From NCBI GenBank assembly GCA_037176845.1, contig JAYKXP010000030.1, positions 434,001 through 498,000 of the forward strand: a stretch of 64,000 bases of DNA, in the 5' to 3' direction. Below are positions 26,034 through 46,479 of this stretch, piece by piece (the first letter of the stretch is position 1; every line of letters begins with the position of its first letter). Origin of the DNA: Paramarasmius palmivorus (lineage: Eukaryota; Basidiomycota; Agaricomycetes; Agaricales; Marasmiaceae). The translations under genes were made by a program, and so were the position numbers. The notes beneath the pieces are model-generated. The model saw only the letters and a program-made list of their open reading frames with translations, was not told the DNA's origin and made no database searches.

Positions 26034-26142
26034 ATGGCCTTCAACGGCCCAAACAGTGTGGACGTTCATGGAGGTGCCCACAACGTTGTGCATGGCAACC
26101 AAATCAATACGACAAATCAATTTGGGAGTTTTGCAGCTGCCG
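26034..26142 (+). CDS. Displaced first exon of NACHT gene 1
   Basis: ATG at 26034 opens MAFNGPNSVDVHGGAHNVVH, then GNQINTTNQFGSFAAA, ending at a GGTGAG donor (26143) in phase 1. The motif V.VHGG..NVV.GNQ.N.TN is the short N-terminal exon seen before the NACHT domain in many agaricomycete proteins. The intact paralogue here (60278-60446) has the equivalent (NVHSSHNLTVYG, HQVGGNQYNETN), also phase 1. The next exon of this gene, the one lacking a start codon, is at 44030 and also needs a phase-1 partner: joined, both genes read through the same Asp-Asp. No closer second exon or alternative first exon was found. Confidence 0.75.
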
Positions 26143-26369
26143 GTGAGTAGCAGAGTCCCTGTTGCCGGATACCCGTCGAGATCAAAGGCTTAAATTACCC
26201 ACGCGCCGAACCGTAGTAATGACGCTCGCATGTACATAGTAAACCCACGCGCCCGTACACTTTCCTAATTAAGTACATCCAACACAAGTCTCACCCGCCC
26301 AACGCTAACAATCAAACGGTACATTGTTACCATGACACACAGTCCGGGAATATCGCCACACTCAAAAAC

Positions 26370-27810
26370 AACCACTGAATACAGGTACGAGCGTTTCACT
26401 CCAAGTGGATAATACAGGAAAGACAGACTTTCTGAAGCCGAAATTTTAGACGATGTGAGAGGGGAAGAATGGTACTGGCTAGTCGACACTGTGCGGATTA
26501 AAGTACGAGGAACCCATATACGAGTCGTGCTATGGTAGAAGCTGAATCCTCGGAGTGTTTCGGAAAGGGAATGAAGATACGGGCTGGCGAAGGAATTGTC
26601 GGAGACGGTACAATGGTACCACCTCAAAGATGCGTTGTCGACGAAGTGCGATTATAATGCCTTGTGAAGAATTAAACAACAATACTGGGTAGATGAGGAT
26701 TGGGAGATGGTGCTGGTTGTTCCAGATGAGAGGGTATGATGGTTTCATCTCCGAGAAAAATTTGCTCAACCAGAACCTGTAGACCGTTTCAACAAGGAGG
26801 TGATTAAACCAAAATTTTGAGAGCCCATTGGAGACGGTACGACGGTACATTCTAAGAGTGTGTTAGCAGAGAGCTGTCTAGTGGTTCGGTAGCAGAAGGT
26901 ACGACCATCCTATCCCCCATGTTGACCCGCTGACGCAACATTACTCAGACCGTATCGTAGGCGGTACGGCGATACATGCTAGCTTGGCACGTACAGGACA
27001 CGGTGTCATGATTCCACCATCGAGACACCTTCATTTGCGTCGAATAATCGGCCCACGTCAACGCATCGACAATCACGGGTGGTTCTGGCTAAGAAGGTAT
27101 GCCAATTCTACCCACCGGAGTGATTCTGCTGAAGCATTTCCACCGCCCAGACGATTTCACGGGTTCCAATAATTCTGCAGGAGATGGTATGATCATTCTG
27201 TACCCCAATGTGACTTGGTTGAAGGGAAATACTTTCTTTGTAGCAGGTACTGCAATCGGTTTACCACGTGCACGATACGGTACCAAATTTTCACAATTAA
27301 GATACCGATTCTAGGGGGGAACCTACAGGTTCCATTGGACCGGGTACGAAGGTACAGTCTGGGGGAATGTAGACGGAGATTCCGCAGGAAAAGGTATAAT
27401 CGTTCTTCACGCCAAAATGCATCTGTCTAAATGAAAATGTCAGACCCGTTCAAGGAGGTACAATGGTACTTGCCAACACAGCACATGTAGGAGAAGGTAC
27501 CAGGTTCCTAGGACCGAGATGTCGTCTCTGGCGTTATATCGGACAGGGTATGATATACCCTCAGAAAGCTTGCAGGAGGAGGCTGTCTGATGGCTCTACA
27601 GGAGAAGGTATGCTGATTCTTCTTCCTATGGTGACTTTACTGAAGCGGAATCCTCAGACTGTTTCGGAGGGAAATGGCAGCGCTGGAAAGCTCAGCACGT
27701 GCAAGATAGCGCGAGGTTACCAGCTGGTACGGAATATGCAGACCATGTCAGAGGGCATTAGGACGCTAGGCATGTGCAGAAGTTTGTCCAAAGTTCGCAA
27801 CCTGTAAGTA
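26370..27810. repeat. Degenerate GGTAC-rich tandem repeat array (left)
   Basis: The core GGAGA(A/C)GGTA(C/T)(A/G)A(T/C)GGT recurs every 50-110 bp; visible starts include about 26608, 26834, 26896, 27094, 27182, 27392, 27455, 27495 and 27604. A longer shared piece, GAATCCTC.GA.TGTTTCGGA, occurs near 26548 and 27648. Units differ considerably, so this is an old or fast-drifting array. Short frames inside repeat phrases such as GEGMLILLP and GDGMIILYP but are broken by stops. It lies just downstream of the displaced NACHT exon and resembles the array at 42.1-43.6 kb. Confidence 0.65.
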
Positions 27811-27884
27811 CAACTGAAATTTGGTATTGAAGGCGTAATCTCAAAAGCAAAATACAGATATACGACATGTACCAACCTCGAAGT

Positions 27885-29511
27885 TCAATCATCATTATCA
27901 TCTTCCACGTCGTCCTCTACATTGTCCTCATGGTCAGCCCCATCCTCAGCGTCGTCGTCGTCGGCGTTGTCCTCGTGATTAGCGCCATCCTGAGTATCGG
28001 CCTCAGCATCGTCCCCCGCGTTATCTTCCACATCTTCATTTTCATCTTCATTGTCGCCCTTCTTCACCTTGGCTACTCGAACATCTATCAACTTTCGGGA
28101 CCAACAGTGTGGCAGACTGAGTGGCAGCTCCTTTGTGCTTTCCTCGACCTCGTTTTCGTTGAAAACTAAGCAATGCACCTTCAACAACTTCGGCATCTTC
28201 CCCAATACCTGATCGATATCTCTCAGGTTGCTTGAGCGGTGGAGATGTGACACGCTCAGGTACACCAGCGTATTCACCGGAAGATTGTACACTAGGAAGT
28301 CGCCGGCGTCCACGTTCGGCGGGAAGATCACCGAAAGCTTGGCGAGTTTGTCACAAGCTTTGTCCAGGAACACCAAGTCCCACGTTCCTAGCTTAGCATC
28401 AGTCGACTGTACGGACGGTTGATTGATAGTAAAAGCTCACCCGTTGATCCCTCGAGCATTTCCAAGTGTGCTAATTCAAGTCCTTCCCACAATGAAAACA
28501 AACGTGTCCATGCACCCGGATGCATCCACTCGTTCTCTGGGGTCCTCCGATCCAGTTCCTCGAAAAATGTTTGACCGAAACGCCAGAACAAGTTGCGAAG
28601 AGACTTGAAAGGGGAACCTGCTTCGAGAAGCGCAAGCATACCGTACGGAGATTCCACATCCCATGTCCAGGCCTCTTTGAGATTTCTAAGACGCGGCTTG
28701 GTCTTAGACTCTAGTCGCTTCCATGCCTCCTCCTCGTTGTCCTCGATCACGTAAAGCTGTCCCAAGTCCACCTTCTCCAATGCTTTGAAAGTTCGGAGAA
28801 AGTTCACCGCATCACTGTATTGCTTCACCGACCAATCCGTCAGCTTCAAGTATGTGATATTCTTGAAAGCTGCTGTCAAGGTGATGAGCTCACGGGGTCG
28901 CAGGAATGCTGGATATCTCACTGGAATCAGTGAGACGTGCCGGGTTCTTTCATGAATGACCTGTCCTATGGATTTTCCCGAGCCCAATATCCAGCTGAGA
29001 ACCCGGATATAGGGATGTGAATGTCTTCGTTCATAGTCCTCGAAGACGGGAGTCTTGCCACTCCGCCAGAATATGAGCGGTTCGTCCTGAGGAACATCCA
29101 CACCGCCTGCGATGTCGAGGTGAAAGCAGTCGACCACACCAGCGAATGACGAGGTAACCGGCCCATCCAACATCTCCCGAAGACCATTCCACATCCTCTG
29201 GTCACTCTCCGTCCCCAGCAAACAGCGGGCTTGAATATACCTCGGCCTCTCAACCCAATCCTTCCCGAGTAGTACCAATGAATTCAGGTCCCGCATCGTC
29301 TCAGGTGGCAGGTCGATTATACCTGTGTCGACATCGTGCGACACCGTTCCAACAACCTCCTCCACGATTCTGCCGATTATATCTGGGATCAACCTTGTTT
29401 GGTGTACGGGCGAGCTTCAAGTTCTTTAGTCAGCGAACGAGGGAGGCAGCACAAAGGCAAGATCGGTATATCATACCGTTCACCAGGTGGAATCACAGTG
29501 CTCTGTTCCAT
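27885..29511 (-). CDS. F-box-like protein with long acidic C-terminus
   Basis: The main exon (to about 28440) reads IPDIIGRIVEEVVG, an F-box-like helix, then DLNSLVLLGKDWVERPRYIQ and a Leu-rich body with LITLTAAFKNITYLKLTDWS. An intron (donor GTGAGC at about 28440, acceptor GCTAG) leads to GTWDLVFLDKACDKLAKLSV. The end is a roughly 60-residue Asp/Glu/Asn-rich tail finishing VEDDVEDDNDD at 27885. The start is uncertain: there is no in-frame ATG before IPDIIG. The ATG at 29511 (MEQSTVIPPGER, donor GTATGA) is the best upstream exon, but joining it to the body needs a frame change I could not explain, so the 5' end may be broken. First of the genes between the split halves of NACHT gene 1. Confidence 0.6.
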
Positions 29512-29682
29512 TATGACGGCTTCAATGAGGAGCAAGGGTAGTTTGCAGCGTACGCGCAGTGCTACAAAGACGCAGGGAATATGCTGACTCAGGTGTCACA
29601 CATAGCCAGATTGTCACACCCATGTCGCCCAAGGAATCACCTCTTCGTTTGCCAATCCACTATCTCAGAAATAATATTCTAT

Positions 29683-30806
29683 TTACATGTAAACAAACAA
29701 CTCCGAGCTTGCCAGCACCTCAGCCTTCTCGTCATCATCGTAACGCTCTTCAAAGTCCCTCCACCTGGACGCAACCTTCTCCTTGAGTGGCTCCCACACG
29801 CAGGTGCATTGATCCGTCGACAACCCAAGTATCATGTCGTTCAACCTCTCCATTAGCAGGGGTTGTTGCGGAAAACCTTGGGAAGAGACTAGCCGATCAA
29901 TTTCATCCTCAACGCATCTGTCATGCATGACCAGAACTACGCAGGGATGTGCCACGTAATCCAGCATTGTAGGCCTTTCTAGCGCTGTTGAATCGCCTTC
30001 ATCGCATTCTACTGCTACCACTTGCACTGCCCCTCCCACGCGAATATCGAACAGGTGAACTTGGATCGAGTTTTCATGTCCGAGCACATTGCCATAGGCG
30101 ATGTAGAGGTGCTCCAACTGTTGAAATCCCCGGAAATCCTGATACTCCAGAAATGGTTCGCCGAAACGAGGATCGTCCATGTCAACCGACACCCGCAGGT
30201 GAGTCATACTCGGAACCTGCCCTGGTGTCAGCTTAACAAAGAGCCAGGCAGGTACCTCTAGAGACGTGACTCGTTGGAGACTCAGTCTACCGAATTGTTC
30301 TCCCAATGCCGGATATTGTCGTTGCGTCACAATAGCAAGATTCCGTAGGAAACTCGAACACGCTTGGATGACGTGTGCAAGCCCTTCCACTTCTTTGGCT
30401 GTGATGGGGTCGTCGCAATCCAAGACCGGGTTGTAACCCTCGGGATAAATCGATGTGGGGAATGCTGGAAACAAGGGGCGCGTCGGTCCAAGTACAGCAC
30501 ACATCGTATGGATGTACCGCAAACGGTCTGGGTTGAAGAGAATCGTTTGGCACAGCGACAACAGGGATTTAGCTTTTGTGAGCTGGACAATCCCATAGAA
30601 TGTACGCAAGATTCTGAGAAAGGCAGCTTTGAGGCGACTATGTCTAGCGTAAAAGACGTCAAGACACACCTTTCAGAAATTTTCCTATTGAAGACCATAA
30701 AATCCCTCCGACCTTGTGGGCCCCAGCGTTGTAGACAGTCCTTGAAGATGTCAATCAATATGTCATCCACGAGCACTTGTTCGTTCGTGACCGGAGCAAG
30801 TGACAT
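29683..30806 (-). CDS. Hypothetical F-box/LRR-like protein
   Basis: A long exon from about 30669 to the stop at 29683 reads HSRLKAAFLRILRTFYGIVQ, RVTSLEVPAWLFVKLTPGQV, FRGFQQLEHLYIAYGNVLG, ending ASSELFVYM. The preceding frame (ATG at 30806) reads MSLAPVTNEQVLVDDILIDI, a possible F-box helix. The two frames meet around 30665 at GTGTGT with a two-base discrepancy and no good intron, so either a small exon is missed or there is a frameshift. Leu-rich patches resemble F-box proteins of this genome, but no domain is certain. Its neighbour at 27.9-29.5 kb has similar size and orientation. Confidence 0.5.
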
Positions 30807-31024
30807 TATACTTGGAGATATTGTGTGTGGAGGCTTTGCGGTGAGAGACGAAGATGATGTGGAAAAGCAAGAAGGCAAGGAAGCTTCATGAAATATGCTT
30901 TTATACGATTCTCACAGTATATTTGTTCCAGGACAGTCTATTCGTTCCACCAGTATCTACGGACGTGTACAAGTATACGAGCAGGCAGCCGGAACAAGAG
31001 AACTACGCAAAACTACAAAGTGAT

Positions 31025-33822
31025 CTATTCGTTATCAGAAAGGACAGTGACTTCGACATCAGCTTCGTCATCAAGAGCCTCCATAGCAACCTGCAAACGA
31101 TTAATTCTAGCCTGGTAAATCTCAGCCAACTTCATCTTCACATAGTACTGACGACCGTGTTCCTTCACCAGCTTGTATTCGAAGACATCATTGACTTCCA
31201 TCACCCCGTACTTCTTCACCGCGGCAAGAAGAAAAGCTCGATCACGAGGGACTTGGCGTTTTCCAGGACCCCAGCCTTCAAAGAGACCTGTCGACACGGA
31301 TGTGATCAGCAAGGTCTTCCACAGACTAAAGGACATGATAGCATCGTCAATCAAACAGCCACAATGACAGTAACCAGGAAGAGGTGTCTTTGTCTTTGGC
31401 TGCGGTATTCCGGTGACGACGTGCTTGGCCAAGGTCCTAACCTCTGGAGCGACAGAGGTGTTCTTTTCCTTCGCCTCGACCAACTTTACCCTTGCCTTTT
31501 CCGCCACAATGTCGTTCTTGGAGATCCCTTGATTTTTGTTGGCGTAGTCGTGATAAATGCAGTGGGTTTCCCCACTGCCATTGCTCGTCGTCAAGATCCA
31601 CAAGATAACGTGTCGGTTTATCAGTCCTGAAAGAGGAACACGTGCTGCATGCCCACGAATGTAAGCACAATCAGCCGTGTTCAACTTAGCAAGCATCTCG
31701 TCGGTGGGGTTTGCTGCATAGCGACGGAGCTTCGTGTTGCATCTCGCTATGGTATGTTTAGTCAAATTAACAGAACCGAAGCGTGGATTTACTTACACTC
31801 TCGGTCGTCAGAAATTGCTCCTGTCAACTGGAGGGAAGGTGCATCCGGAGGCCTAGTATGCATTACAACCTTCTTATCCACGGCCAAGTCTACAAAATGT
31901 CACGCAATCAATAACTATCTCGCATTTGAAAGAATATACTCACTAAACTCTGGCTCAATCATGGTGACTTCACCATCGTCCCCGGCTGCGGTCCCAGTAG
32001 AAGCACCCGAAGCACTTGAAGCACCCGAAGTACCTGGCGCGTTATTACCAACACCTGGTACAGCAGCAGGCACGACCAAAGCCATCACAGCTGCAGCTCT
32101 CGGGTCATCTGGTTGAATACCAAGAATGGCGAGTAGTGCCTTGGACCTATCGTCTAGCAATGCAGGAGATGATGCAGTAGAAGCGGAAGCAGCAGAGGAT
32201 CTAGCGCTATCGGTGGTGCAGGTGCTATTGGAGGACGTGACCTCACCCATGTCCACATCATTAACTTGAGCAGAAGAGGCGGCAACGATGTTGGTGGAAC
32301 CACTGGAAGTCTTTCCCTTCCCTTTCCCTTTCCCTTTCCCCTTCCCCTTCCCCTTCCCCTTTACCTTGCTATCATCAGGCAAGCTCGACACTTTGGTCAT
32401 CGTATCGCCGGTGAGAGCGGCATCATCCCCGCCAGGGTGCAATGGGTCTGGACCATCCACCGACTTAATCGAGTCGGACTTGTCCGGGATCACGTCACCA
32501 GCGCCAACTTTCTGCTTGGCGCTAGCAGTCTCAGTAGCGGAAGCGTCGACGTGCTTAACAACGCTAGAGTGGTGATTGTTGTCGGGAGATCCAACGGGAG
32601 GAGGAGCCGGAGCAGATTCAGCAGCAGTAGCTGAGGGCATGATGACTTCACCGGTAACAGTCACGGGAGGAATATTGGAAGTGTCATGAGCAGAGGAAGT
32701 GCTGTCGATAGGAGGTGTAACCTTGGCAGAGGTGGTCGTAGCGGGAGGAGCATTGTCAGGTGTAGTGATAGAAGTTCCAGAGACAGCAGAGGCGTTGTCT
32801 TTGGCACTCGACACGTCACCCGAGACGGCTGCAGCTGTGTTCCTCACTGAAGCTTTGGAAGCATTAGTGGTAGGACCTTTGCCGGCCTTTGCTCTCCCTT
32901 TGGCTGACACCTTCTCGCTTCTTTCAAGACCAGTATCAGCACTAGTCGACCCCGGCTGCCCCACGTTCAGCTTGACACGCTTGGCCGGTTGTTTCTCGCC
33001 GGGTGGCAGAGGCCAGTGGCGCTTCTTCTTGGGCTCTCCCAGTACTATGGAAGTGTATTAGCTGTCATGCATCTATCGAATTAAAGGATAACGCACTCTC
33101 CAAGTCGTCGTCGTCGTCACTGAGATCCGAATCCCCGAAGGCTACACAATAGTCAGTCTGGATATAAGAAAAAAAAATGTAGGACACATTACCTTCTTGC
33201 TCCATGAGGAACTGGAGTGTTTTTTCCAAGATACCTTCAAGGCGCGCCTGCTGCTTCCCCATATTGGCCCGCTCCGCGGGATCCTGGGTCCGCAACATCA
33301 GCGCATGTTGCTCAAGAAACTCTGCCGTGTATATGAGTCGTCAGAATGGCCGTGAAGGTAAGTAATGTCAATGCTCACCTTGCTTGAACCCAAGATATTG
33401 CACTGCCTTCTGGTAGACGGTAAGCTTGGTTGTTGCCTGGGCTAGGGCGACTTCCTTCCGGGATATAGCCTCCTTCAGAGCATTGGCCAACTTGCTCGAG
33501 ACGCCATTGGAACGTGTGCGTCTCCCGTTAGGCTTTGACAAGCCTGCCAGCGAGTCTTGGTCGCAGCGAATGGCATCACGGAGGTCGTCCTTGTCGCGTG
33601 CGATGAGTGTTTGATTTTCGACGAGCTGTTGCTTGACTGTGGAGGGGTAATATTTTTTTTTTCAGTTTTTTTTTGTCGGTGAGGACGATGGAAAGACTTA
33701 CGCTTCAACATCGCAGGGATATCCTTGCTACACTCGGTTGGGCAAGCTATAGGGAGGTGAGCAAGTTACATCAAGAAGAGGTGGGTAGACGGCTCACCTA
33801 GAATACGTTTCAGGACACCCAT
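31025..33822 (-). CDS. Unrecognised protein with Lys-Gly repeat and Cys-containing C-terminal region
   Basis: ATG at 33822 (MGVLKRIL, intron, ACPTECSKDIPAMLK) begins a multi-exon gene. Residues from about 25 form a helical region (KLANALKEAISRKEVALAQA). Next is an acidic segment (DSDLSDDDDDLE), then a long Ala/Ser/Thr-rich disordered part holding about ten Lys-Gly dipeptides (32311-32363). The C-terminal exon is structured: NTKLRRYAANPTDEMLAKLN, CAYIRGHAARVPLSG, GETHCIYHDYANKNQG, GYCHCGCLIDDAIMSF, VKKYGVMEVNDVFEYKLV, ending VTVLSDNE. I recognise no known domain. The layout suggests a nuclear or RNA/DNA-binding protein, which is inference only. The clean frame and splice sites argue that it is a functional gene. 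Confidence 0.65.
32311..32363. repeat. Hexanucleotide repeat coding for (Lys-Gly)n
   Basis: CCTTTCC/CCTTCC-type hexamers (minus strand GGGAAA/GGGAAG) repeat about nine times in frame within the gene above and encode alternating Lys and Gly. Likely unstable in length. Confidence 0.85.
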
Positions 33823-34136
33823 GGTGGTGGTCAAGAAGGAACAAAGATTTTGGGGTGACGCGGAATAATATGCTTTTAAGACTCCGCCTTCCTCAGAGCC
33901 CGATTTGGCTCAGTTTAGCCAAGGTAAGAGGTTGCACATGATACACGCAAATAATATCCCTGAGATCTGAGCGGATATCGCTTACAGGCACAGATATTTT
34001 GAACACCAACACTGCAGAATAGCACTCAGTGGTCGTCATTAGTAGACCTTTTGTGTTTGATAAACTAATGTTTTCAATTATTAGCTTGATATCCTGGCCT
34101 GCAAAGAGTGAGTAGGTTGGTCGAACTTTTAGTAGG

Positions 34137-34385
34137 GCCGACTAACCTTGCACTTCGGGGCCGACGAACCTTCCCCTTTGTGGCCGACGAACTTTGCAGC
34201 CGACGAACCCCGGTACTGACAAGTGCGGAATAGTATTCTTTTTTTCCGCCATCCACTCATTTCCTACCAACATTCTACGTTTACTCACCTAAGCTTTGAG
34301 CTTTAGATGCTATAGAGTGCCACAATTTACCCCCAAAACCCTGCCATTTTATTGTCTTTAGAGTGTTGGCTGAGGCCGACGAACC
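34137..34385. repeat. Short interspersed motif GGCCGACGAACC, five copies
   Basis: GGCCGAC(G/T)AAC(C) occurs at 34137, 34159, 34182, 34199 (without the first G) and 34374, all on the plus strand and spaced 17-23 bp in the first group. No further copies were noticed elsewhere in the window. Clustered short motifs like this are typical of subterminal repeats of DNA transposons, here at the upstream edge of the gene group that includes the KDZ-type gene. Confidence 0.6.
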
Positions 34386-34541
34386 CCCGGTAAATCAAAA
34401 TATTCGTCAGCCCAAGCGTTTTGTTTATCTGTTATCAGAAAGCATGGCAACAGGGATGCAAAGGGACATCGTGTTAACAACAATTTTGCACCCCACAATC
34501 ATCCTTTGCGCTTCACAACGCCCTTGCCCCGAAATTCGAAT

Positions 34542-34947
34542 ATGTCCGACTCTCCAGAATCACCACTGCCGCAAACAGAAGAGGAGTCCGTGCTCCGCTA
34601 TACACCAGATCCTCCTCCTGCTATTCGAGACGCTGCTGAAAATATTGCATACAGTAAGCTTCAAGCCAGATAACTTTGGCCGTACCTGACAGAGAACTTT
34701 ACAGATATCGGCATTGAAGCTCTTCGAGGAGAGCTATATCCCTTAACAATGCAGCAAAAACGTTCCATTGCGTCCGCAATTCAACAATTGTTTGTAGAAT
34801 TCGGTGGGTTTTCATTGGTACCCAGCCTTCAGCTTCGTCATTAACAACCAATTAGAAGGATCTCAAGACGTGGCTCACTATCTTATCCACCTCATTTTTG
34901 ACCCCGATGTCGACCTTCATTTCATAACAGTTCTAGATGATCTGTAG
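34542..34947 (+). CDS. Small acidic hypothetical protein (about 100 aa)
   Basis: Three exons with good junctions. Exon 1 is MSDSPESPLPQTEEESVLRY to AENIAY; a 51-nt intron (GTAAGC...TTTACAG) leads to NIGIEALRGELYPLTMQQKR; a second intron (GTGGGT...AATTAG) leads to EGSQDVAHYLIHLIFDPDVD, ending HFITVLDDL before TAG (34945-34947). Acidic, with a helical centre and no domain recognised. It starts about 150 bp after the GGCCGACGAACC motif cluster, so it may be a cargo gene of a mobile element. Confidence 0.55.
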
Positions 34948-35581
34948 TAGCTTTATTCGTCTACCTGTACTTTACCTATAGCTGGATTTACGAGTGTTTT
35001 TGGTGTCAAACGTATGGCGGTGCGACGCCAGTTTTAACATGGGTCTAAACGTTGAGCAAGGAACTGTATTGCGAGTTTTATTTCTGCGAAATCTTCAGGG
35101 TTATCAAAGAGTCCTTAACAAGATGCCATTGAATAAATCACGAATGAAGACACTGTCTATCTAACAGACGGTGTTCCTACAAGTTTCCCATATGTTCACA
35201 ACAAAGAAATTGGTGTCCCGCTTCAACCACTGTGAAACTCAATGAAATACTCTAGATATTGCCTGTCTGTATGTATGGCTACGCTATATTCAACAACTGG
35301 GCCAATCGAAAAGGTGATAACATGCTCTCAGTGCAGCAACGCTTTACTTGCGGGGTAAATGTATTCGAAGTAAGTGACTATGAAATTTACACTTTCCTCA
35401 CCGATAACTCTGAGAATGCACTTTACTATCTGATACTAGGATTTAAGAAGCATGTCATTCATACTGTTTATATAGCTCTACATATTTCTCCAGTGCTTGC
35501 CCGCAGCCCGACATTGACTTGGATTCATCACGGTGGTCACCGGCGCTTGTTGGTACTCTCTTCCCGCGACCACCACAGTCA
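34948..35581. other. Intergenic region in the nested island
   Basis: About 630 bp with no supportable gene. A 155-codon frame overlapping 35259-35726 has no motif and overlaps the well-supported next gene. Confidence 0.4.
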
Positions 35582-36432
35582 ATGCCACGAAACAAAAAAT
35601 ACACTACGAAGGCAGCTCGGCTTCAGGCTCAACGAGAAAAAGCACACCGGTATTATCAGAGGTATGAAACCAATGTTTTATAGTCATGCGTGTAGTCAAC
35701 TATATTGCACAGGCACCGTGAACTGATTCTTGAACGGAAAAAGCAGCTTGACAGAGAAAATGCTCGGGCCAGGTGTCGGGAAACAGCAGAGACAGAGTAA
35801 GTCTGCTGACCTTCATTTTATTCTAGCACCCACAGAATGATTTATCACCAGGTTTCGAGAACGGAGGCAACTCGCTGCTGAACGTACTGCAAATGTACTC
35901 AAGAAACGACAGAGAGAGTTACGACTGGCTGAAAGGATTCCGGCACCAAGGTGCACCATCGTTACTATTACATGGAACTATTGGCTAACAACTCATTAGG
36001 TCAGCGCTATGGGAAATGCGTAACCTCGAAAATGCTTTCAACCGTGAAACGACCAACTGTCCCTCCACTCTATTAGACCAGATATGTGCCGAAATTCTTT
36101 GCTGGTATTCAACATCTCCTCGCCCGCAAATGTCACCTTTTACGCACCATTACAAAGTCTTCGAGGGCATTCGAAATTCGATATATGAGGTAGCCGACCT
36201 ACTTCTGAAGGAATCAGGAGGCACGGAGGTGACAGAAGAGTGGAGGCATGCAGACAACCTACGCAAGAGGGTGTGTCGTGTTTGCCTGTGCCTTGATAGT
36301 CTCCACAGCGCTGTTGTCGAAGATAATCTTGTTGAGCAATACTCGAATGGATCGTTGTTGCATCAAGACACGGTTTGTCGGGCATGGTTGGACAGCAAGA
36401 GGGAGGGTACCTATTTGGAACAGGACTTGTAA
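35582..36432 (+). CDS. Basic coiled-coil protein, transposon-associated type
   Basis: Exon 1 MPRNKKYTTKAARLQAQREK and exon 2 RHRELILERKKQLDRENARA form a strongly basic, helical N-terminus. Exon 3 continues FRERRQLAAERTANVLKKRQ. The last exon is more globular (ALWEMRNLENAFNRETTNCP, LCWYSTSPRPQMSPFTHHYK, CRVCLCLDSLHSAVVEDNLV), ending EGTYLEQDL before TAA at 36430-36432. Introns are short with GT-AG ends. The basic-helix start resembles bZIP-like DNA-binding regions; I do not recognise the globular part. It sits head-to-tail with a second gene having a similar basic N-terminus. Confidence 0.6.
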
Positions 36433-36586
36433 AAAGACGTTCTGAGTAGTTTTACGTAGAATGTAGACCCAGCATCTGTGCTGTATATAGTAAGCGCCAG
36501 ATAGTCGAATAAACGCCCAATGTGACATGCGATGTGTGACTCGCAAGTCACTTATTTTGGAAACTGGAACTTATCAAACTATAACT

Positions 36587-37260
36587 ATGGGTCGTTGCGT
36601 TGAGAAAAGGAGGGCTTCTAACAGGGTAGCTGCTGCAAGACATCGTGCTAAGTGAGTAAATGTCATCTGCCTAGCAATTGACGCTGACTGCCAGGTTAGG
36701 AATCTAGAAGAAACTCGGCGGCAGGCTCGTGAGCGAATGAGAAGAAGACGGTCGTCGCAGAAGGACCAGAAGACAAGGGAGCAAGGAGAAACACTAGTTA
36801 GAGAGGCCTGTGTACACCACAGGAATCACGAGGACTCAGAGCAGGCACAATGCCCTCATGGATGCTATCCTCCAAGACACAGAGATCGAACTGAGAGGTG
36901 CGTTGGCAGTGGCCTGTGATTCAACACTGTGCTGAACCCAATGATAGCACCGTTGAAGCTGAGGAGCTGCCCAGCCAGGCTTCTATACCATTCCTTATGC
37001 CAAATCTCAATCCGCACCACTATAGCAGTCTTCCCAATCTGACCAAGCCCAGTCCGCTCCGCTGTAGCAGTCCGTCGAGTCCAACAGAGTCCAGATCTCA
37101 GCTATCTCCCTCTCAGGATTCCAGTGTATTGCTTCGATTAGACACTCAGAAACAGCTCGCAGACCTGGCCACGTCAATGAAGATTGTTATGGCTTGGATT
37201 AATCGCCATGCCACCATTTGCGAAGCACACATGTATTCTCACACATCAGGACCTCAATAA
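36587..37260 (+). CDS. Basic leucine-zipper-like hypothetical protein
   Basis: ATG at 36587 gives MGRCVEKRRASNRVAAARHR, which matches the basic region of bZIP proteins (N..AA..R). After an intron it continues KNLEETRRQARERMRRRRSS, then a short Cys/His-rich patch (CVHHRNHEDSEQAQCPHGCY). A second intron leads to a Ser/Pro-rich region (SSPSSPTESRSQLSPSQDSS) and LATSMKIVMAWINRHATICE, ending at TAA 37258-37260. A DNA-binding role is inferred only from the basic region; no zipper heptads are clear. It converges on the next gene with under 50 bp between stops. Confidence 0.55.
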
Positions 37261-37306
37261 CAGAGATGAACTTATTTATGTATTACTCATAGCAACTACA
37301 AATTCA

Positions 37307-38708
37307 CTACAAGTGAGATACGTCCACACCAGCCTCCGGCAACAGATCCAAAATCCTGGCCATCTTGCGTTCCTGCTCTTCGAGCTTTTTCTGCAAGTCA
37401 TTCAGGCTCTCACGAGCGGCAGCTTCCGACTTCTTGGCTTCGGTGAGCTCAGCCCGGACTTGAACGTTCTCCATCTCAACCTGAGCAACATCGCGAACAG
37501 TGGCTCTCGACAAAGCAGTGTGCATGTTAGAATGAAAAGCATGCAGATCATTCATGCGCTGATCAGCATCTCGTATCAACGCATCCGAAGCGAAATGCAC
37601 GAAGCCGTGGTTGGAGGTAGCCAGTTGACTGGAGATATACAGCCAGCATCCTGTAACATTCGCAACCTCCTCACACTGGTTGATGCAAACTAAGCAAGAA
37701 TACGAAGGTCAATGAACGGAAAGACTCACGCGTTGTAAGATCCGGCTCATTCGTCGTTGAAATTGTGTAGTTCGAGATTCACGTGAAGCATTGTAGGGTT
37801 CAACTGAGCGACGCCGAGGAATGTCTACATATAAGGTTCGGATCAGAGTATTCAAGGGACAGAGTGAGAAATACTTACTCCATTCAAGGTTGCCGCGCAT
37901 AGCGCCTTTGACCCGGCCATATGGTTGATTCTTCTGACTGACCCGAACACGAGAGGACCCAGATCGTGAAACAGAAGGTGTAGATGAACTGAAACGTGCA
38001 GAATTCGAATTCAAATTCACAAAGGTTAGGTTTCCGTTGGAGACTGGGGAAGACGCCTCGGGGCCTGGGCTTGGAGACGAAAGTCTGTCATTGTCATACT
38101 CGGAGCCAATGTCTTCGAAGGGATCTGTATCGACTCTTCTCTGGGTGTATGGTGGTAGATCAGGACGCAGCTATATCTTTCATGAGTGATAGTTCAATAA
38201 AAGCACGAAAGGATGACGGACAGGAGACGACTGTTCAACACGTGTTCCTTGCAGAGCAGTTACTTGATGCAGCGCGGGATCAACTGGAATGTTTGTGGAT
38301 GAATGGTGAGTGGGTGTAGTTGGTGAGGCAGCTTGCAAATTCTGGCCGAGGAGAAGATATGCCTGAAAGGTGTAAACATAAGCAAGTGTTGATTAGAAAA
38401 TTAGTTAAAGTAACCTGGGGGTGGGGTGGTCGCAGCGAAACAGTTGGGTCCGACACAGGTAGTTGCACAGGGCTATGTTGTGACGCAAGTGGTGTCTTAT
38501 CAATTGACGACTGAAAATGGATTTGAACAATGCGCATTGACGTAGAAAAAGGAATTCATACCACGGTAGTTTTACGAGCTTTTGCGCTATGGGCACACTC
38601 TCGCAGAAGAGGTCGGTTGGGACAACGTTTGCAATGTCTCTCTTTTGGCGCACCAGGTGTTGGGTGACCTGCTTTACGAGGTGTCCGTCGAGGGGATGCC
38701 AGAGTCAT
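37307..38708 (-). CDS. CxxC-start, coiled-coil protein divergent from the KDZ-type gene
   Basis: The start at 38708 reads MTLASPRRTPRKAGHPTPGA, then ERHCKRCPNRPLLRECAHSA, a small Cys-rich patch that may bind zinc. The middle exons are Pro/Ser/Thr-rich (HPQAYLLLGQNLQAASPTTP, DIGSEYDNDRLSSPSPGPEA, SSSTPSVSRSGSSRVRVSQK). After exons encoding RRRSVEPYNASRESRTTQFQ, the C-terminus is a coiled coil (NVQVRAELTEAKKSEAAARE, LNDLQKKLEEQERKMARILD), ending EAGVDVSHL. Only 149 bp separate its start from that of the divergently transcribed KDZ-type gene, suggesting a shared promoter and joint mobility. Function unknown. Confidence 0.6.
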
Positions 38709-38857
38709 TTGACCAGGCCGGGAGTTGCAGTGAAAGCCGTTATGTGTAAACAGTGGCCGATGTCTCTTTTGTAGAGGCTGGGGTCAGAGAAAGCAGAGAG
38801 ATATTAAGGGTTTTATAGGACGCGCTGGTTCCCCAAACAGTCCAAAAGTGTAACATC

Positions 38858-41800
38858 ATGTCACGCTGGTCACATGCAGTCACAGTATCACCCTCGATGT
38901 ATCCATACAGGCGGGAGGCTACACCGCCGGCACCATACCAGTATCCTCTACGAGCGAAGTCTTCAACAACAGACCGGAGTCAATATCCAGGGGGACTCCA
39001 GCCTATCAACAGTGATTGGCTGAAGACCCCAAGTCCCCAGAAACCTCCGCAGCGACGAAAACGGCGTCGCATTGGGACGTCACAAGGTACATCCTTGACG
39101 GGTTCGAAAAAGGCCCAACACAAGGAGGCGGAGGGCGATAACTTGCAGCAGGAGTGGTTGGGATCCAGCAGTTTGGAAGCTTCGGATCAAGTACATGATA
39201 ACTCAGTGTACGAATCTTTAATCGACACAGGTTTCGACAACGCTCCAATCCTCAACAGTACTCTGGAAGAGGAAGAAGACGGCTACCTTCACAGTGCCGA
39301 ACTAGATGAGCATGTCGCGCAGCAAGCCGATGGCGAGAAGAGTTTCGAAGCATATGTTGAAATGGTTACTTCAGGTTGTGCGAAGTTCATCCAAATTACG
39401 AAAATCGTCTATGCGGTACAAGGTTGGAATAGACGGGAGCAGGAGTTATCGGTATGTTGAATTCGCTCATGGTAGTTTCCAGAAGCTGAACCATGGATTC
39501 AGGACGACTTTTATCACCTTGAAGCAAGGAATGTTGGCAACCGACTGCGTTTGGTGTGCTTGTGCCCTGATGCAAAGAAGGAATGTTTGTGTGTGCACCA
39601 GCTTTTTTATCTTGAGTTCAGAGAGGATATGTTCGAGGAGAAGGAAAAACTATGGTCTTCCGGTAAGCACATAATATGATTGCAAGATGGGCCGACTGAC
39701 TCACTCGTTGCACCAAATAGAGAAGAAAGTCATAATGTTCTGGCGGCAACGAACAGGATTCGAGAATTTAGTTTGGCTGACAAGGTTTTCGGTTGCAAAC
39801 CATATGGGTGGCTTGAATGGAAGAGCTATCGTATCGTATGAAGGTCCAGATGCTGGTGGAGGAACTTGGAGGTGTTCCAAGGACAAGGGAAGGTGTGAAC
39901 ATATTGATGCAGCCCGGCGCGTACTGCGGGAGACGTTGAACATAGCTGATGATGATGAAGTGGACGAAGGCATAGAATCCCAGGACACTGGATCGTACAG
40001 AGTTGGTGAGCGTAAACGATGCACATAATTCATTGTACTGATATTTTGATTAGTCGAGGACTTAAGTGGTGGGCGCGATCGTGAAACGGCAATATCCTTC
40101 CTGCCCATAATGCCCCCAAAATGGGCATTCCTAGCAACAGATCCCGTCTTGTATACCAGAGCCAATCCTACTGCCTATATCCCACAAATAATCACCATGC
40201 AGGTCGGGAAAGCTCGAGCATGTTGCGCGAATCGTCCTGAAATGGATCCACTGCGTCCGAAGATTGTGCGCCCATGCAAAGTTTACACCTATACGACATG
40301 CCTGGAACGATCCATTGAGGTGCAGCAGTGTCCAGAATGCCCTCCCCGGCGCCACTGCTTTATCGGACCTGACCCACGACACCTCGGCCTCTTCAACTAT
40401 AACAACTCTGTGCTTTTCTCGCATGAGTTATTGGATGAATACACGAATCGCTCAGGAACAAGTGAGACGCCATTCGCAGCGTTTACACAATGTTCAGCTA
40501 GGGTCTTCAATGGCCGGGGCTCGAAATTCATAGGGGAGGATCTCTTCCGAGAAGCGTGGTTTGCCTATGCAGCACTTATGCTGTTAACAGACGACATGAT
40601 GTGTCCGAAATGCGGGAGAGAACCAGAGAATGTCATCTTCGATGGCGTGACCTTGTCATTCCACAAGAAACATGTAACAGGCACACTACATCCCCCTACA
40701 TATATCGAGGACGACGCTCCAATTCGTCATCGCAACTACCCACGGAAGCCACAATGGCTCCCCGCCATGCGAAACGAAACGCCTGCACGAGAGCGCCTGC
40801 GAGAGTTCCTGAAGGCGCAACGCTCCGCAAAGCCATGCGAAAACCAGAAGGAAGGGACAGGGACACTGGGGCAGGATCAAGTCGGAACACGGAATTATGT
40901 TGCAGAAATAGTTGCCGAAGTGGGAAAGGTATCTCCGGAGGTAGCACGACTCACGGAGAGAATCTTTGGTCATGGGGATTCCGAATGGCGGGCCGTTTTG
41001 GGAGGACTGCGTAGAAAATATATGAAATTGTTGGAACAGGTATGCGACTCAGAGGTTGCACGGCATTGTGATTGACATGTTGTAGCTGGCTGCAGAGGAG
41101 TCGGCTATGCAAATGGTCAATGAGTCAGCTCTTGAAAAACTGAGAGATTTTATAGCCTCACCAACAGAGGAGAATGGATCTACACTGGTCGACGTGCCTG
41201 CCTTACTTGCCATATTGGAAGGGGAGATGAGGTTGGTGGGTTCCTATACACCAGAGCTTCTGCAAGTGTGCCAATGGATGGTACGGCGCGCTACCGAAGT
41301 ATTGACCGAGTTAAAGGCAGGTAATCTGCCGCCGCTACCAGCATTGCAGCAGCCAAAAGAGCAAGGTAAAGACTGGAAACAGGTTTGTCGAAGAGTGTGA
41401 TCATTGCTTTCCAAGCTGATAATCTGACATAGACTGGGACCTGCTACGGCCTTCCAAAAATCCGAAATAGACCTCGCTATACAGGTCTTGCTGGAGAGGG
41501 CCAACCAGATACCGAGACCGGTTCGCGAGGAAAATGTGCGAAGTATTATTCAACCTACAGCGAGAAACGCCTCACTGGAGGGCTCATGTGCGCGTGGTGT
41601 ACCCATAGCATTTGCTATGGGTTTCATTGTATTCCTAAGGGGGAAGGCCGTAACGATGTGTTCGCCGCACTGATAACACATTGGCCGAAGGCCCCGAAGC
41701 GAGTGATATATGATTTTGCGTGTGCCCTAGGTCCATATTGCATGACGAGGGAGCCAGAATTCTTCGCTAGAACACAATTTCTGGTGGACGGGTTTCATGC

Positions 41801-42023
41801 TAAAGGCCATACGAAGTGCTCGTCTGCATCATTGTTGTCGACGTACACGGAGACTGATGCCAAGCTTTCGAAACTGAACTCCAGCGCTGCGGAGTGTGGA
41901 AATGGTGGTATGGGGAGGATAAGGAAGTCGCTCAGCTATATGCGGCAAAACAGAGCAATCCTATTTGCAAAGGTGTTTCTGTCCATATGGAATCGCCTAC
42001 GTATCTTGGCTATGTCAACATGA
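38858..42023 (+). CDS. KDZ/HMGXB3-type transposase-like protein with cysteine clusters (CxC5-like)
   Basis: Exon 1 (MSRWSHAVTVSPSMYPYRRE) is disordered with the basic patch PPQRRKRRRIGTS. After an intron (39450-39501) comes LVCLCPDAKKECLCVHQLFY. Then follow RFSVANHMGGLNGRAIVSYE and a SWIM-like zinc motif, TWRCSKDKGRCEHIDAARRV. Next come the cysteine cluster CPECPPRRHCFIGPDPRHLG, LFNYNNSVLFSHELLDEYTN and MCPKCGREPENVIFDGVTLS. The last large exon holds TGGLMCAWCTHSICYGFHCI, EGRNDVFAALITHWP, RVIYDFACALGPYCMTREPE, FLVDGFHAKGHTKCSS, NSSAAECGNGGMGRIRKSLS and FLSIWNRLRI. This matches the RNase-H-like region shared by KDZ-associated fungal proteins and animal HMGXB3. About 960 aa after five clean introns and no internal stop, so apparently intact. 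Likely a DNA-transposon protein; host use is possible. Confidence 0.8.
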
Positions 42024-42103
42024 TCTTAATATATGTAATGAATTCCACTTACTTTTTAGTATAGAAACCAGACAAAATCAGAGGGATTGGATTGGCAACG
42101 AGA

Positions 42104-43560
42104 AAGAGACGGTACCAAGAAACCATGTGAGAATGAGAAGGTACGGCTGCCCGAATAATCGAGTGAAAGAATGTGCACACCGCCGCATGCAGTACACCGG
42201 TACCGTAGTAGCAGACAGAATGGCCTGCAGGTACCAGAATTCGGCGACACGAGGGACGAAGATTCAGCGTGTCTCGGGAAGGAATTGACAGAGCTCCTCA
42301 TGGAGTATAAATATTCGGTGTGCAGCAGGTGACTGCTGACACGGTACCAAGATTCGGTGTGGCCATTGTGATCGTGGGGGTGTTTGTACACACCATATGA
42401 CGCAGTACGCCGGTTCGGTGATAGCGAGCAGGGGTACGCTGCGGGTGCCAACATTCCTCGAGAGAACGTATGAAAGCTATGTCGACAAGGGTATACCACC
42501 ACACAAGGTACTGCAATTCTGCGTCAACAGTTCGAGTCTGACGGTCAAGGACGGCAAGGGGTGTACCTTGGAAGAAGGTATAGGTCGTCGATATGTAGGA
42601 GAAGGTAACAGCAAGTGCACCGGACATGGTATTGGGATTCCGTGTGGCCCTTATGAATAAAGAGATGGTGCCGAGATACCCTGTGAGAAGGTACCATTGT
42701 CTGAGGGGTTGAGTGAAGGAATGTGTACACCGCCTCGCACAGTACACCGGTACCGTAGTAGCAGACAGATTGGCCTGCAGGTACCAGAATTCTGCGACAC
42801 GAGGGACGGAGATTCGGCGTGTCTTGGGAAGGAATTGACAGAGCTCCCCACGGAGTATAAGTATTCGGTGTGCAGCAGGTGACTGCTGACACGGTACCAA
42901 GATTCGGTGTGGCTATTGTGATCGTGGGGGGCGATTTTGCACACCATATGACGCAGTACGCCGGTTCGGTGATAGCGAGCAGGGGTACGCTGCGGGTGCC
43001 AACATTCCTCGAGAGAACGTATGAAAGCTATGTCGACAAGGGTATACCACCACACAAGGTACTGCAATTCTGCGTCAACAGTTCGAGTCTGACGGTCAAG
43101 GACGGCAAGGGGTGTACCTTGGAAGAAGGTATAGGTCGTCGATATGTAGGAGAAGGTAACAGCAAGTGCACCGGACATGGTATTGGGATTCCGTGTGGCC
43201 CTTATGAATAAAGAGATGGTGCCGAGATACCCTGTGAGAAGGTACCATTGTCTGAGGGGTTGAGTGAAGGAATGTGTACACCGCCTCGCACAGTACACCG
43301 GTACCGTAGTAGCAGACAGATTGGCCTGCAGGTACCAGAATTCCGCGACACAAGGGACGAAGATTCGGCGTGTCTCGGGAAGGAATTGACAGAGCTCCAT
43401 ATCGCCAGCAACTTTGCTTCAGAGAAGGTGTAGATGTTCGGCATGCAGTGGGAACTGACATTGAGATCTTCTGACGCAGTACCAAGATTCAGTGTGCTGC
43501 AGGAGGTGATATGGAGAGGTGCGGAAATACCCGGTGATATGGTATCCAAGCACTACCTCC
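42104..43560. repeat. GGTACC-rich tandem array with a roughly 551-bp unit (right)
   Basis: Copy A 42104-42660, copy B 42661-43211, and copy C from 43212, recognisable to about 43400 and fading to about 43560. B to C spacing is 551 bp, A to B 557 bp. Long stretches such as those around GCAGCAGGTGACTGCTGACA (42323 and 42873) are nearly identical, so the duplication is recent. Each unit contains several GGTACC or GGTAC(A/G) sites and AGAAGGTA cores like those at 26.4-27.8 kb. Because the unit is mostly stop-free on the minus strand, frames of 200-250 codons appear; they read the repeat and I do not treat them as genes. Confidence 0.75.
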
Positions 43561-44029
43561 CGAACCATGGCAGAAGGAAAGAAAAATGGGATGAAGGGGG
43601 ACTCGGATACTGCGCGACGAAGAGGACAGCTAGTGACAGTATGAAAATAGCACTAATTCAGGATGTGTGGACCGTGCGAGGTGAGTATCAACGTACCTTG
43701 CCAGCTGAATAACCACCCCTTTCCATCCCTACGATACTACGTGTTCATCCTTTCTACCCAAAGGGAGAGGGTATGGAGATCCTGTCTCCGTAGGCTTAAG
43801 GATGTGGAGGAATCTGAGTTGACATGGTATCAACATTCGCGCGTGACATTTCTTTGCTCATCATTGAACTCCGGTTCGGACATCTATATTTAGTAATGCG
43901 TCCCGCGCAAGGTTTTACTATGTACATGTGAGCGGCTTTTCCACGGCTCCTCGCGTGGGTTTTCTAAGTCTTCGTTCTCGACGGCTGCCCCCCTGTTGCT
44001 TGTTATGTATGCTGACTGATCACTCATAG
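43561..44029. other. 3' end of the displaced NACHT intron
   Basis: No first-exon-like sequence is present. It ends with a branch-point-like GCTGACTGA (about 44011) and the acceptor CACTCATAG (44021-44029), so the NACHT body looks correctly delimited by a splice acceptor and not by a start codon. Confidence 0.6.
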
Positions 44030-46479
44030 ATGATATCCTTCGAACACTGGCAGCCCGTGCGGTCGTGAATGCGACATACGACTCAGAAGAACGTTTTCCT
44101 CCACCAAATTGTCATCCGAACACACGGGTGAATACCCTTAGCACACTAGGCCTTTGGGTCGATGACCCCAAATCCACTATCAGAGTCTTCTGGCTACACG
44201 GCTCTGCCGGCGTAGGCAAGTCAGCCATCGCCCAGAAACTGGCGGAGGATCATCCTAGTCGACTAGTCGCGGCATTTTTCTTCTCTCGGAACGACACCAC
44301 CCGCGATAAGCTCGACCAATTCGTTGCGACGATAGCCTACCAGTGCTGTACATCAGATCGCCTCAAAGATGTCGTCGGCCCTCTTATCATTGATGCCATT
44401 CGCTCAAACCCCAACATCTTCCGTACCTCTTCCGAGAACCAGTTTCGCAAGCTGTTGCTTGTTCCATTCTCGAAGTTAAACACAGATTCTCCCCTCACCC
44501 TGCCGGACCTTATCGTGGTCGACGGCCTGGATGAATGTGTTGACCCTTCATCCCAAGCGAGGCTGTTGAACTTCGTTGATGATGCAGTCACTTTCCCTAC
44601 TCCATTTCCTTTCAAATTTCTCCTTTGCAGTCGCCCCGAGCCACAACTTCGGAATGCCTTCATTAACGCTCGTTTCGCTCCGTGCCTTGAATGCATCACG
44701 ATTTCCGACACAACCATCCGTTTCTTGGGCTATTTGTCTGAGTCCGACATCGACATCCAAAGATATCTGTCGGAGAAATTTACCTCTCTTAGAGAGAAGT
44801 ATCGGGCTGTACTACGGGATGACAAGGAGTCGTGGCCAGGCGAAGATACGATCAATGAACTCGTCTGGCGAGCTAGTGGGCAGTTTATCTTTGCCGTCAC
44901 CGTTATCAAGTATGTTGACACCATGGATGATCTACCTCAGGATCGCCTGCAAACGATCCTGAGCACGCAGACGGGGGAGATTACAAACACACCATATCCC
45001 GCTTTAGATCTCCTGTATCGACAAATTCTGTCCGCGTGCCGTCGCTGGGATAGAGTATCTCTAATTCTCCGACTCTTGATCACCCCTCACCCAAATGTCA
45101 CCTGTGTCGATTCGACGGGTATCCGTTGGAATTCTCCCTCGGTCATCTCACAACTCTTCGAGTGGAAAGCGGGCGAGGTTGAGGCCTCACTTTCCAGGCT
45201 GCACGCGGTGTTGCATATACCCGAGGACGGTGTTTCCGAGATTCGTATTCTTCATGCTTCCTTCACAGAGTTTCTCCTGGACAAAGTGCGTTCCGGAGAG
45301 TACCGTGTCTCAAAATTTCCTGAAGAAGAGTACTGTAGCCTGGTTACTGTGCTCCTCCTTCGTATGATGTCCTCGTTCACATCCTCTTACCCATTGTATC
45401 GCCCACCCAACTTGTCCCCAGCCGTTGCATTCACCATTTGGAAGGATGTGACATCATCCATGGACACCCTGACATTGTTTGCGATTAACAATTGGGCATA
45501 TTACTGTGTTCAAGCTGGTTCGCCTAACACGCGATTACTAGCTGAACTAGGCAAATTTGATCCATACTGCGTGGTAGCTATGCTACTGTCAAAGTTTGGC
45601 GAGGGTTGGTTTTTGTCTCATCTACCAGAATGGAAAGCTTGCTTAAGCTGGGCCCAGGTTCGTTGTTGTTCGTCATAGGATTTCCATAGCTGAAACGATG
45701 ACCTACAGTCATTTGAGAAATCAGAAACTCGGATATTCATTGAACGTTTAAAATCTTTTTCTTCTGGTCTTTATCTCGGCTTTTCAAGAGAAACCATGCG
45801 ATACGATGCAACCTGGATAACCTTCAAGATGGAATGTTCTCTCAGAGCGGAATACAACGTCAATAGACTCACAGATCTCGTTACCAAATACTACCGGAAA
45901 TGGTGGAGCGAGTCGTCGGGATCGCTATGGACGCCCGGAATGTTTCCATTGGTGCTCCCCACCACAATCAACCCGGTGGACGTTGTCCCTGAAGATTGGG
46001 TTGTGGTACGCCTCGTGAACGGGAACGACGAGAAGCTACAAAGGGTACATGATGTGTACAGATCTCTTGGATCGGGTGGTCGACGGTTGTTCAATGATGA
46101 TGTTCTATATGGCACATCTGGGAGTGTTAGTAGGAATCTAGTCAAGGTGTGTCTATCCTTAATGGAATAGCATGACGAATACTGAGGACAATGCATTTAG
46201 GAGAAGGATCTGGTGGCTTTCAAAACACTGCTCTATCATCGCCGAGATATCTTCTCTGTGCTGGGCAGCCATGTCATCTCCAAAGGTAGTGGCCCTGAAC
46301 ATTTTTTGCGTATTTTGCGGACTGATACAGACGAAACAGAACTTCAAGAACTCCCGACAAAGGATGACTCCGATGACGAAGGCAAAGGCAACCTTTCCGA
46401 ACCAGAAGTGGATTACCAAGCATCCGAGGAAGAGAAAAATCACTCCCATGGTGAGAACAGAACAGTGAGGAGGATATAA
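44030..46479 (+). CDS. NACHT-type NTPase gene 1, main body
   Basis: Exon 2 starts after CTCATAG with DDILRTLAARAVVNATYDSE and has no ATG in the right place; its first exon is at 26034-26142. Walker A is HGSAGVGKSAIAQKL, followed by AAFFFSRNDTTRDKLDQFVA; Walker B is LIVVDGLDEC; sensor-like FLLCSRPEPQLR and ASGQFIFAVTVIKYVDTMDD follow. After an intron (about 45660-45710) come ETRIFIERLKSFSSGLYLGF and WWSESSGSLWTPGMFPLVLP. After another (to 46200), EKDLVAFKTLLYHRRDIFSV and an acidic tail. No ankyrin or WD repeats. The paralogue at 60.3 kb is collinear throughout. A further intron (GTGAGAAC at about 46454 to GTTAG) would give an alternative end at 46537. Such proteins are NLR-like signal ATPases thought to act in non-self recognition or cell death; ligand unknown. 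Confidence 0.8.

Follow-up and report, generated by a model that had tools for sequence, protein, structure and literature searches.

A gene of the NLR type in Paramarasmius palmivorus, a fungus among the listed causes of cacao thread blight that is also reported on oil and coconut palm (PMC8581569), is split in its first intron by what is, with high confidence, one complete DNA transposon of the KDZ (Kyakuja-Dileera-Zisupton) type, 17,826 bp in length (26166-43991). The window, to which all coordinates refer, is the whole 64,000-nt stretch of contig JAYKXP010000030.1 that was analysed (positions 434,001 to 498,000, forward strand; assembly GCA_037176845.1). The original prediction, made from the letters of this DNA alone, had noticed a NACHT gene divided by a gap of 17.9 kb and had left the choice between an insertion that broke the gene and an exceptional intron still spliced across an island of nested genes. 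The parts of the gene and the landmarks of the insertion are as follows.

26034-26142, plus strand: NLR exon 1, assigned by homology
26143-26157, plus strand: left-hand part of intron 1, bearing the donor GTGAGT
26158-26165: target-site duplication, left copy, CCTGTTGC
26166-43991, plus strand: KDZ DNA transposon, 17,826 bp, with termini CGGATACCC...GGCTGCCCC
26166-26252, plus strand: left terminal inverted repeat, about 87 nt, including an 80-nt arm at 26173-26252
43905-43991, minus strand: right terminal inverted repeat
43992-43999: target-site duplication, right copy, CCTGTTGC
44000-44029, plus strand: right remnant of intron 1, with a branch-like CTGAC at 44012-44016 and acceptor TAG
44030-45657, plus strand: NLR exon 2, without a stop, encoding the NPHP3_N/NACHT domain with P-loop GSAGVGKS
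45709-46452, plus strand: NLR exons 3 and 4 (45709-46146 and 46201-46452), after the GenBank model

The coordinates and the join given by the original prediction for the two halves were borne out. Exon 1 encodes MAFNGPNSVDVHGGAHNVVHGNQINTTNQFGSFAAA plus the first base of an Asp codon and ends in GCTGCCG immediately before its GTGAGT donor, in phase 1; the body begins at 44030, directly after the TAG and likewise in phase 1, and joining the two yields ...FGSFAAA-DD-ILRTLAARA across a gap of 17,887 nt (26143-44029). The body is identical to GenBank VNI00_008778 and belongs among the fungal NLRs with a NACHT domain, matching PF24883 at 78.1 bits (cut-off 24.8) and PF05729 at 27.9 bits (cut-off 26.7), with an intact P-loop at residue 57 of exon 2. 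When all six frames of the window were searched with the N-terminal motif pattern of the family, it matched only at 26070 and 60398. The claim that 26034-26142 is the only matching first exon thus stands by homology and falls short in one respect, namely that the element contains an unrelated candidate in the same phase (43434-43680). The GenBank model of VNI00_008778 starts with a version of the latter, 43494-43680, inside the transposon and omits the homologous exon; its first exon is possibly a mis-annotation.

The relatives of this NLR in the same genome tell how its 5' end should look. The genome contains at least 88 NLR match rows, and 5' ends were read for 32 of them and for the window's own paralogue at 60.3 kb; a short first exon lies directly upstream of the body in all 33. 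As had been predicted, the paralogue at 60.3 kb has the identical junction type with an intron of 57 nt, and it is annotated in this way in GenBank (VNI00_008785). The intron measures 50-61 nt in this paralogue and in the first 12 of the others, provided that one chooses, among the candidates, the acceptor giving the customary join (such as D-D...ILR); in two of them (L053 and L055) this was not the one ranked first by the script. For the remaining 20, the first exon was recognized by the motif pattern in nine and by eye, from MAF, MSF, MAY or MVY starts, in 11; because this search was limited to introns of about 40-110 nt and the acceptor chosen by the script was sometimes wrong, no lengths are quoted. 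Among the 34 genes of the genome whose 5' ends were read, the exon is displaced in the split NLR alone. Exon 1 and the NACHT body are one NLR gene, and the split is real. An empty allele was not seen in the assembly, where the 5' flank and exon 1 match only themselves and a 76-nt piece at 78%; the next match of the body is 59% identical, so that this search returned no second allele.

What identifies the gap as an insertion is its footprint. The longest inverted-repeat pair between 25.9 and 44.1 kb consists of 26173-26252 and 43905-43984 (80 nt, 79% identical), and an exact 8-bp duplication, CCTGTTGC, abuts both extended arms of these terminal inverted repeats (TIRs) on their outer side; because its copies stand directly outside the arms, the element is delimited as 26166-43991. 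A loose scan for such ends with an adjoining duplicate found a single pair in the window, compared with an average of 0.1 pairs in each of 40 block-shuffled control sequences of 30 kb scanned with equal tolerance. Once the element and one copy of CCTGTTGC are removed, an intron of 53 nt is left that keeps the donor, the CTGAC branch site and the acceptor. The insertion foreseen as one of the two explanations is hence borne out in the form of a transposon that ends in inverted repeats and is flanked by an exact 8-bp duplication in an intron of that length. Ends shifted by one base (CCGGATAC..GGGCAGCC) were also considered; they fit the window and one further copy described below (C80) but not another (C74), and were dropped.

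The assignment to KDZ comes from the transposase region, which has the CxC cysteine cluster of these elements, matching CxC4 (PF18717) at 138.3 bits (1.7e-40; cut-off 26.9). The following units lie inside the element or at its right end.

27885-29511, minus strand: gene F1 (GenBank VNI00_008772, 503 aa), F-box/leucine-rich-repeat-like by a weak fold match only
29683-30672, minus strand: conserved part of gene F2, without a Pfam match
31025-33857, minus strand: gene G3, several exons; the scanned piece has no Pfam match
34540-36429, plus strand: element gene, its extent judged by eye; about 35997-36409 is conserved in three other copies
36587-37250, plus strand: conserved short exons
37353-38700, minus strand: conserved block of an element gene
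38858-42023, plus strand: KDZ transposase gene, with the CxC4 cluster far above and the KDZ core below cut-off
42281-43420: right subterminal region, where units of about 550 nt are repeated, judged by eye
43434-43680, plus strand: candidate alternative first exon, 82 codons, donor GTGAGT, phase 1 (GenBank uses 43494-43680)

Elements of this kind are repeated in the genome, the CxC4-bearing transposase exon giving 60 match rows. Besides the element of the window, the five nearest of the other transposase matches were examined as copies. All six copies are flanked by exact 8-bp duplications, six different 8-mers in total, and their lengths range from 16.9 to 20.2 kb; the closest relative of the window element is 73% identical in its transposase protein.

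C74: 16,990 bp, duplication AACGTTTT
C80: 17,823 bp (G000:C80:123401-141223), duplication GTCAAATC
C2: 16,908 bp, duplication GAGATAAG
C187: 20,176 bp, duplication AGACCGCT
C214: 17,767 bp, duplication CCGAAGTG, weak termini

TIRs together with 8-bp duplications are clear in the window copy, C74, C80, C2 and C187. Several observations weigh against the assignment and have to be set beside this evidence. The KDZ core itself (PF18758) scores only 23.4 bits (5.5e-5) in the last exon of the transposase gene and 20.5 bits when 617 aa spanning three exons are scanned, both below the Pfam cut-off of 26.6; the TIR arms, 79% alike over the 80-nt arm, are 76% alike when all 87 positions from the extreme end are compared, with agreement at only six of the outermost ten; and the termini of C214 show six and four mismatches in 15, such as chance produces about once per ten 30-kb stretches.

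Each of the five other copies contains matches to F1, F2, G3 and the transposase, with their order kept. Comparison of the transposase pieces, F1, F2 and G3 with those of C74 and C80 gave dN values of 0.04-0.44, whereas dS (NG86) was 1.8-2.9 in seven of the 12 comparisons and undefined in the other five, a pattern that fits purifying selection on the reading frames of the element. The saturation of dS means that the insertion cannot be dated in this way, and dating was rejected altogether, considering also that the TIR arms may have been unlike before insertion and that no close relative of the NLR was found. Habitual insertion into genes is unsupported, the sites looked at being just those of C74 and C80: no frame exceeding 78 aa bridges the empty site of C74, and the flanks of C80 extend to the 5' end of a 507-aa frame. 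This frame appears F-box-like by eye, and the C80 copy lies about 7 kb from another NLR match (C80:148660-150156). A further locus (G000:C46:1-4893) has a left end identical to that of C80 over 100 nt and different flanking DNA, and runs into the contig end; beyond this left end, no match to the window element occurs in the 4.9 kb to the contig end, and the locus may be the left end of a derivative with different contents.

Counted by conservation, the element comprises seven units, and the 'at least eight other genes' originally placed in the gap therefore need qualifying as to their number, and all of them belong to one transposon; GenBank locus tags run from 008772 (F1) to 008778 (the NLR), i.e. 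six genes from F1 to the NLR if numbered in order. F1 has no meaningful Pfam match. Its predicted fold (mean pLDDT 51.9) most resembles FBXL2 and SKP2, and among 610 matches in PDB the one with an E value below 0.001 was FBXL2 (2e-4, TM-score 0.23), on which basis F1 is tentatively considered F-box/leucine-rich-repeat-like; with the same reservation, the element seems to carry two such genes. A search for F1 beyond the species returned four matches, all of them P. palmivorus proteins, and an alignment search gave three matches, all among the same four; neither search was exhaustive, since the relatives in C187 and C214 were missed. The short exons at 36587-37250 look basic-leucine-zipper-like by eye. 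No TET/JBP domain was found in the element pieces scanned, which omit some exons. At the right end, more than two units of about 550 nt can be discerned by eye in 42281-43420, where GGTACC-like motifs are abundant; their period exceeds the 500-nt limit of the tandem-repeat finder. This region has no similarity to the five other copies.

Do the genes in the gap belong to the transposon, or are they an island of host genes, or captured cargo, unrelated to it? Several of them lack a Pfam match, and their association with transposases is uneven. Zones of 20 kb around KDZ-transposase matches make up at most 3.5% of the genome, and they contain 38 of the 39 genomic match rows of G3, but only 18 of 38 for F2 and seven of 12 for F1, both of which have weaker relatives away from such surroundings; conversely, a match is found near 37 of the 60 transposase rows for G3, 19 for F2 and seven for F1. 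In this genome, G3 thus often accompanies KDZ elements and hardly occurs away from them; it is a candidate for a second protein of KDZ transposition or its regulation. Given this near-exclusiveness, and the recurrence of F1, F2 and G3 in unchanged order in every other copy, an unrelated host island is very improbable: the nested genes are the transposon's own set, not captured host cargo. The suggestion that the locus links an NLR to mobile cargo did not survive either, for the NLR lies outside the element ends and the inner genes recur in other copies. Least probable of all is an assembly artefact in which two NLR fragments were misjoined through a repeat. Nothing was found in its favor beyond the fact that KDZ elements are repeated; the element is complete and bounded by termini and an exact duplication, and misjoining of this kind would be hard to reconcile with a closest relative that differs so much in its transposase. 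An identity as a Starship was likewise rejected on account of the KDZ-type transposase, the TIRs and the 8-bp duplication; a captain enzyme was not searched for.

What, then, would become of an NLR whose first intron has been invaded in this way? We propose that the first intron, a normal one of 53 nt, was entered by a complete cut-and-paste KDZ transposon, which would have duplicated 8 bp (CCTGTTGC), turned the intron into a 17.9-kb gap and left the NLR silent or strongly reduced. Loss or strong reduction is the likeliest outcome and a probable one, because the promoter and exon 1 now sit 17.9 kb from the body, because a transcript left unspliced meets a stop after two intron codons, and because no in-frame ATG precedes the P-loop, the first in exon 2 being residue 298; the early stop and the late ATG mean that the NLR needs a spliced first exon. 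What speaks against silence is that the reading frames of the NLR exons are uninterrupted and that no splice signal is missing; exons without decay are as compatible with a recent insertion as with a working gene. Could the first exon come from the transposon itself, so that a promoter and exon in its right end feed the NLR acceptor and provide a new N-terminus? The GenBank model, beginning at 43494-43680, and the 82-codon ATG exon at 43434-43680, with its GTGAGT donor in the right phase, would agree with that. Yet ATG exons of at least 20 codons in phase 1 with such a donor occur at about 0.19 per kb of strand (24 on both strands of the 64 kb, a count that includes any real exons and whose minimum the 82 codons of the candidate exceed), the DNA from 42.02 kb to the right TIR shows no similarity to the five other copies, and the model is that of a 'hypothetical protein'; this source of the N-terminus therefore appears doubtful. 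It is also conceivable that the pre-mRNA runs through the whole transposon and that exon 1 is spliced to 44030, with the element genes nested within a functional giant intron. Donor GTGAGT, branch-like CTGAC, acceptor TAG and phase have all been kept, the reading frame stays open through exons 2-4 with an intact P-loop, and splicing across 17.9 kb is possible judging from these signals. However, mean intron lengths reported for fungi lie below the vertebrate mean of more than 1 kb, the long ones being 469 and 426 bp (PMC8476143), nine strong donors (GTRAGT) and five AATAAA signals occur inside on the sense strand, and F1, F2 and G3 would be antisense to such a transcript. Moreover, Cryptococcus mutants of FRR1 included insertions of KDZ2 and KDZ3 both in its introns and in its exons (PMC12810828), although a screen of this type sees losses only, so that it shows such insertions to be capable of disabling a gene and not that they do so in every case. 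On balance, a functional giant intron is unlikely, and slightly more so is its fullest version, in which the NLR would still be expressed through removal of a 17.9-kb intron holding a whole, possibly mobile, seven-gene KDZ transposon and would switch state whenever the element leaves or is silenced.

Returning to the preferred reading, a transposon inserted into an intron, the case is ordinary as a giant intron: insertion of a transposon into an intron is an ordinary event, and it is the transposon that is unusually large and gene-rich. A puzzling 'giant fungal intron' thereby becomes a clean natural insertion with a known footprint. The locus is nonetheless suited to asking whether the fungal spliceosome pairs splice sites 17.9 kb apart; should it do so here, the intron would be hundreds of times longer than is usual in fungi. 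In addition, the elements define a KDZ lineage in Agaricomycetes that is large, has a conserved set of genes and is modestly new as a multi-gene lineage, and NLR repertoires may vary according to whether or not a tiny intron holds a large transposon.

No paper describing this case was found by title or abstract opening among the matches listed, and the case can be placed beside several known systems. The NLR resembles 'nwd2' of Moniliophthora roreri, a NACHT NLR of another member of the Marasmiaceae, in the type of its short N-terminal exon (P0002) and in its NPHP3_N/NACHT body. A KDZ insertion in a relative of Marasmius oreades is unsurprising, because KDZ and Plavaka together make up about half of the DNA elements reported there (PMC8290104). 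Kojima (2025; PMC12730594) describes Zisupton, Dileera and Kyakuja elements with TET/JBP genes, i.e. KDZ transposons of Agaricomycetes and others that likewise carry extra genes inside, and the Zisupton and Dileera branches share the 8-bp duplication; Kyakuja, by contrast, is described with 7-bp duplications, CA..TG ends and no TIRs, and membership in that branch was rejected for the present element, which has 8 bp, CGGATA..TGCCCC ends and TIRs. An association of F-box sequences with KDZ-type transposons has already been described for fish Zisupton (PMC12062965), where, however, the F-box is part of a transposase isoform or accompanies CxC7 in fish genes, whereas here separate genes are concerned that are leucine-rich-repeat/F-box-like by weak fold match only. 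Closest in behavior are KDZ1, KDZ2 and KDZ3 of Cryptococcus neoformans, which, in the account of PMC12810828, combine a CxC-bearing KDZ transposase with TIRs and 8-bp (4-8-bp) duplications and, in the case of KDZ2 and KDZ3, insert into introns and exons of a gene. They differ in measuring about 9-11 kb, in having TIRs of 139-241 bp and in carrying CxC1, whereas the elements described here measure 17-20 kb, carry CxC4 and have six more conserved gene units; a KDZ element of about 11 kb with TIRs and duplications is also reported in PMC12510652. It is thus their length and their conserved gene set that separate the lineage of the window from the KDZ elements with readable sizes (9-11 kb).

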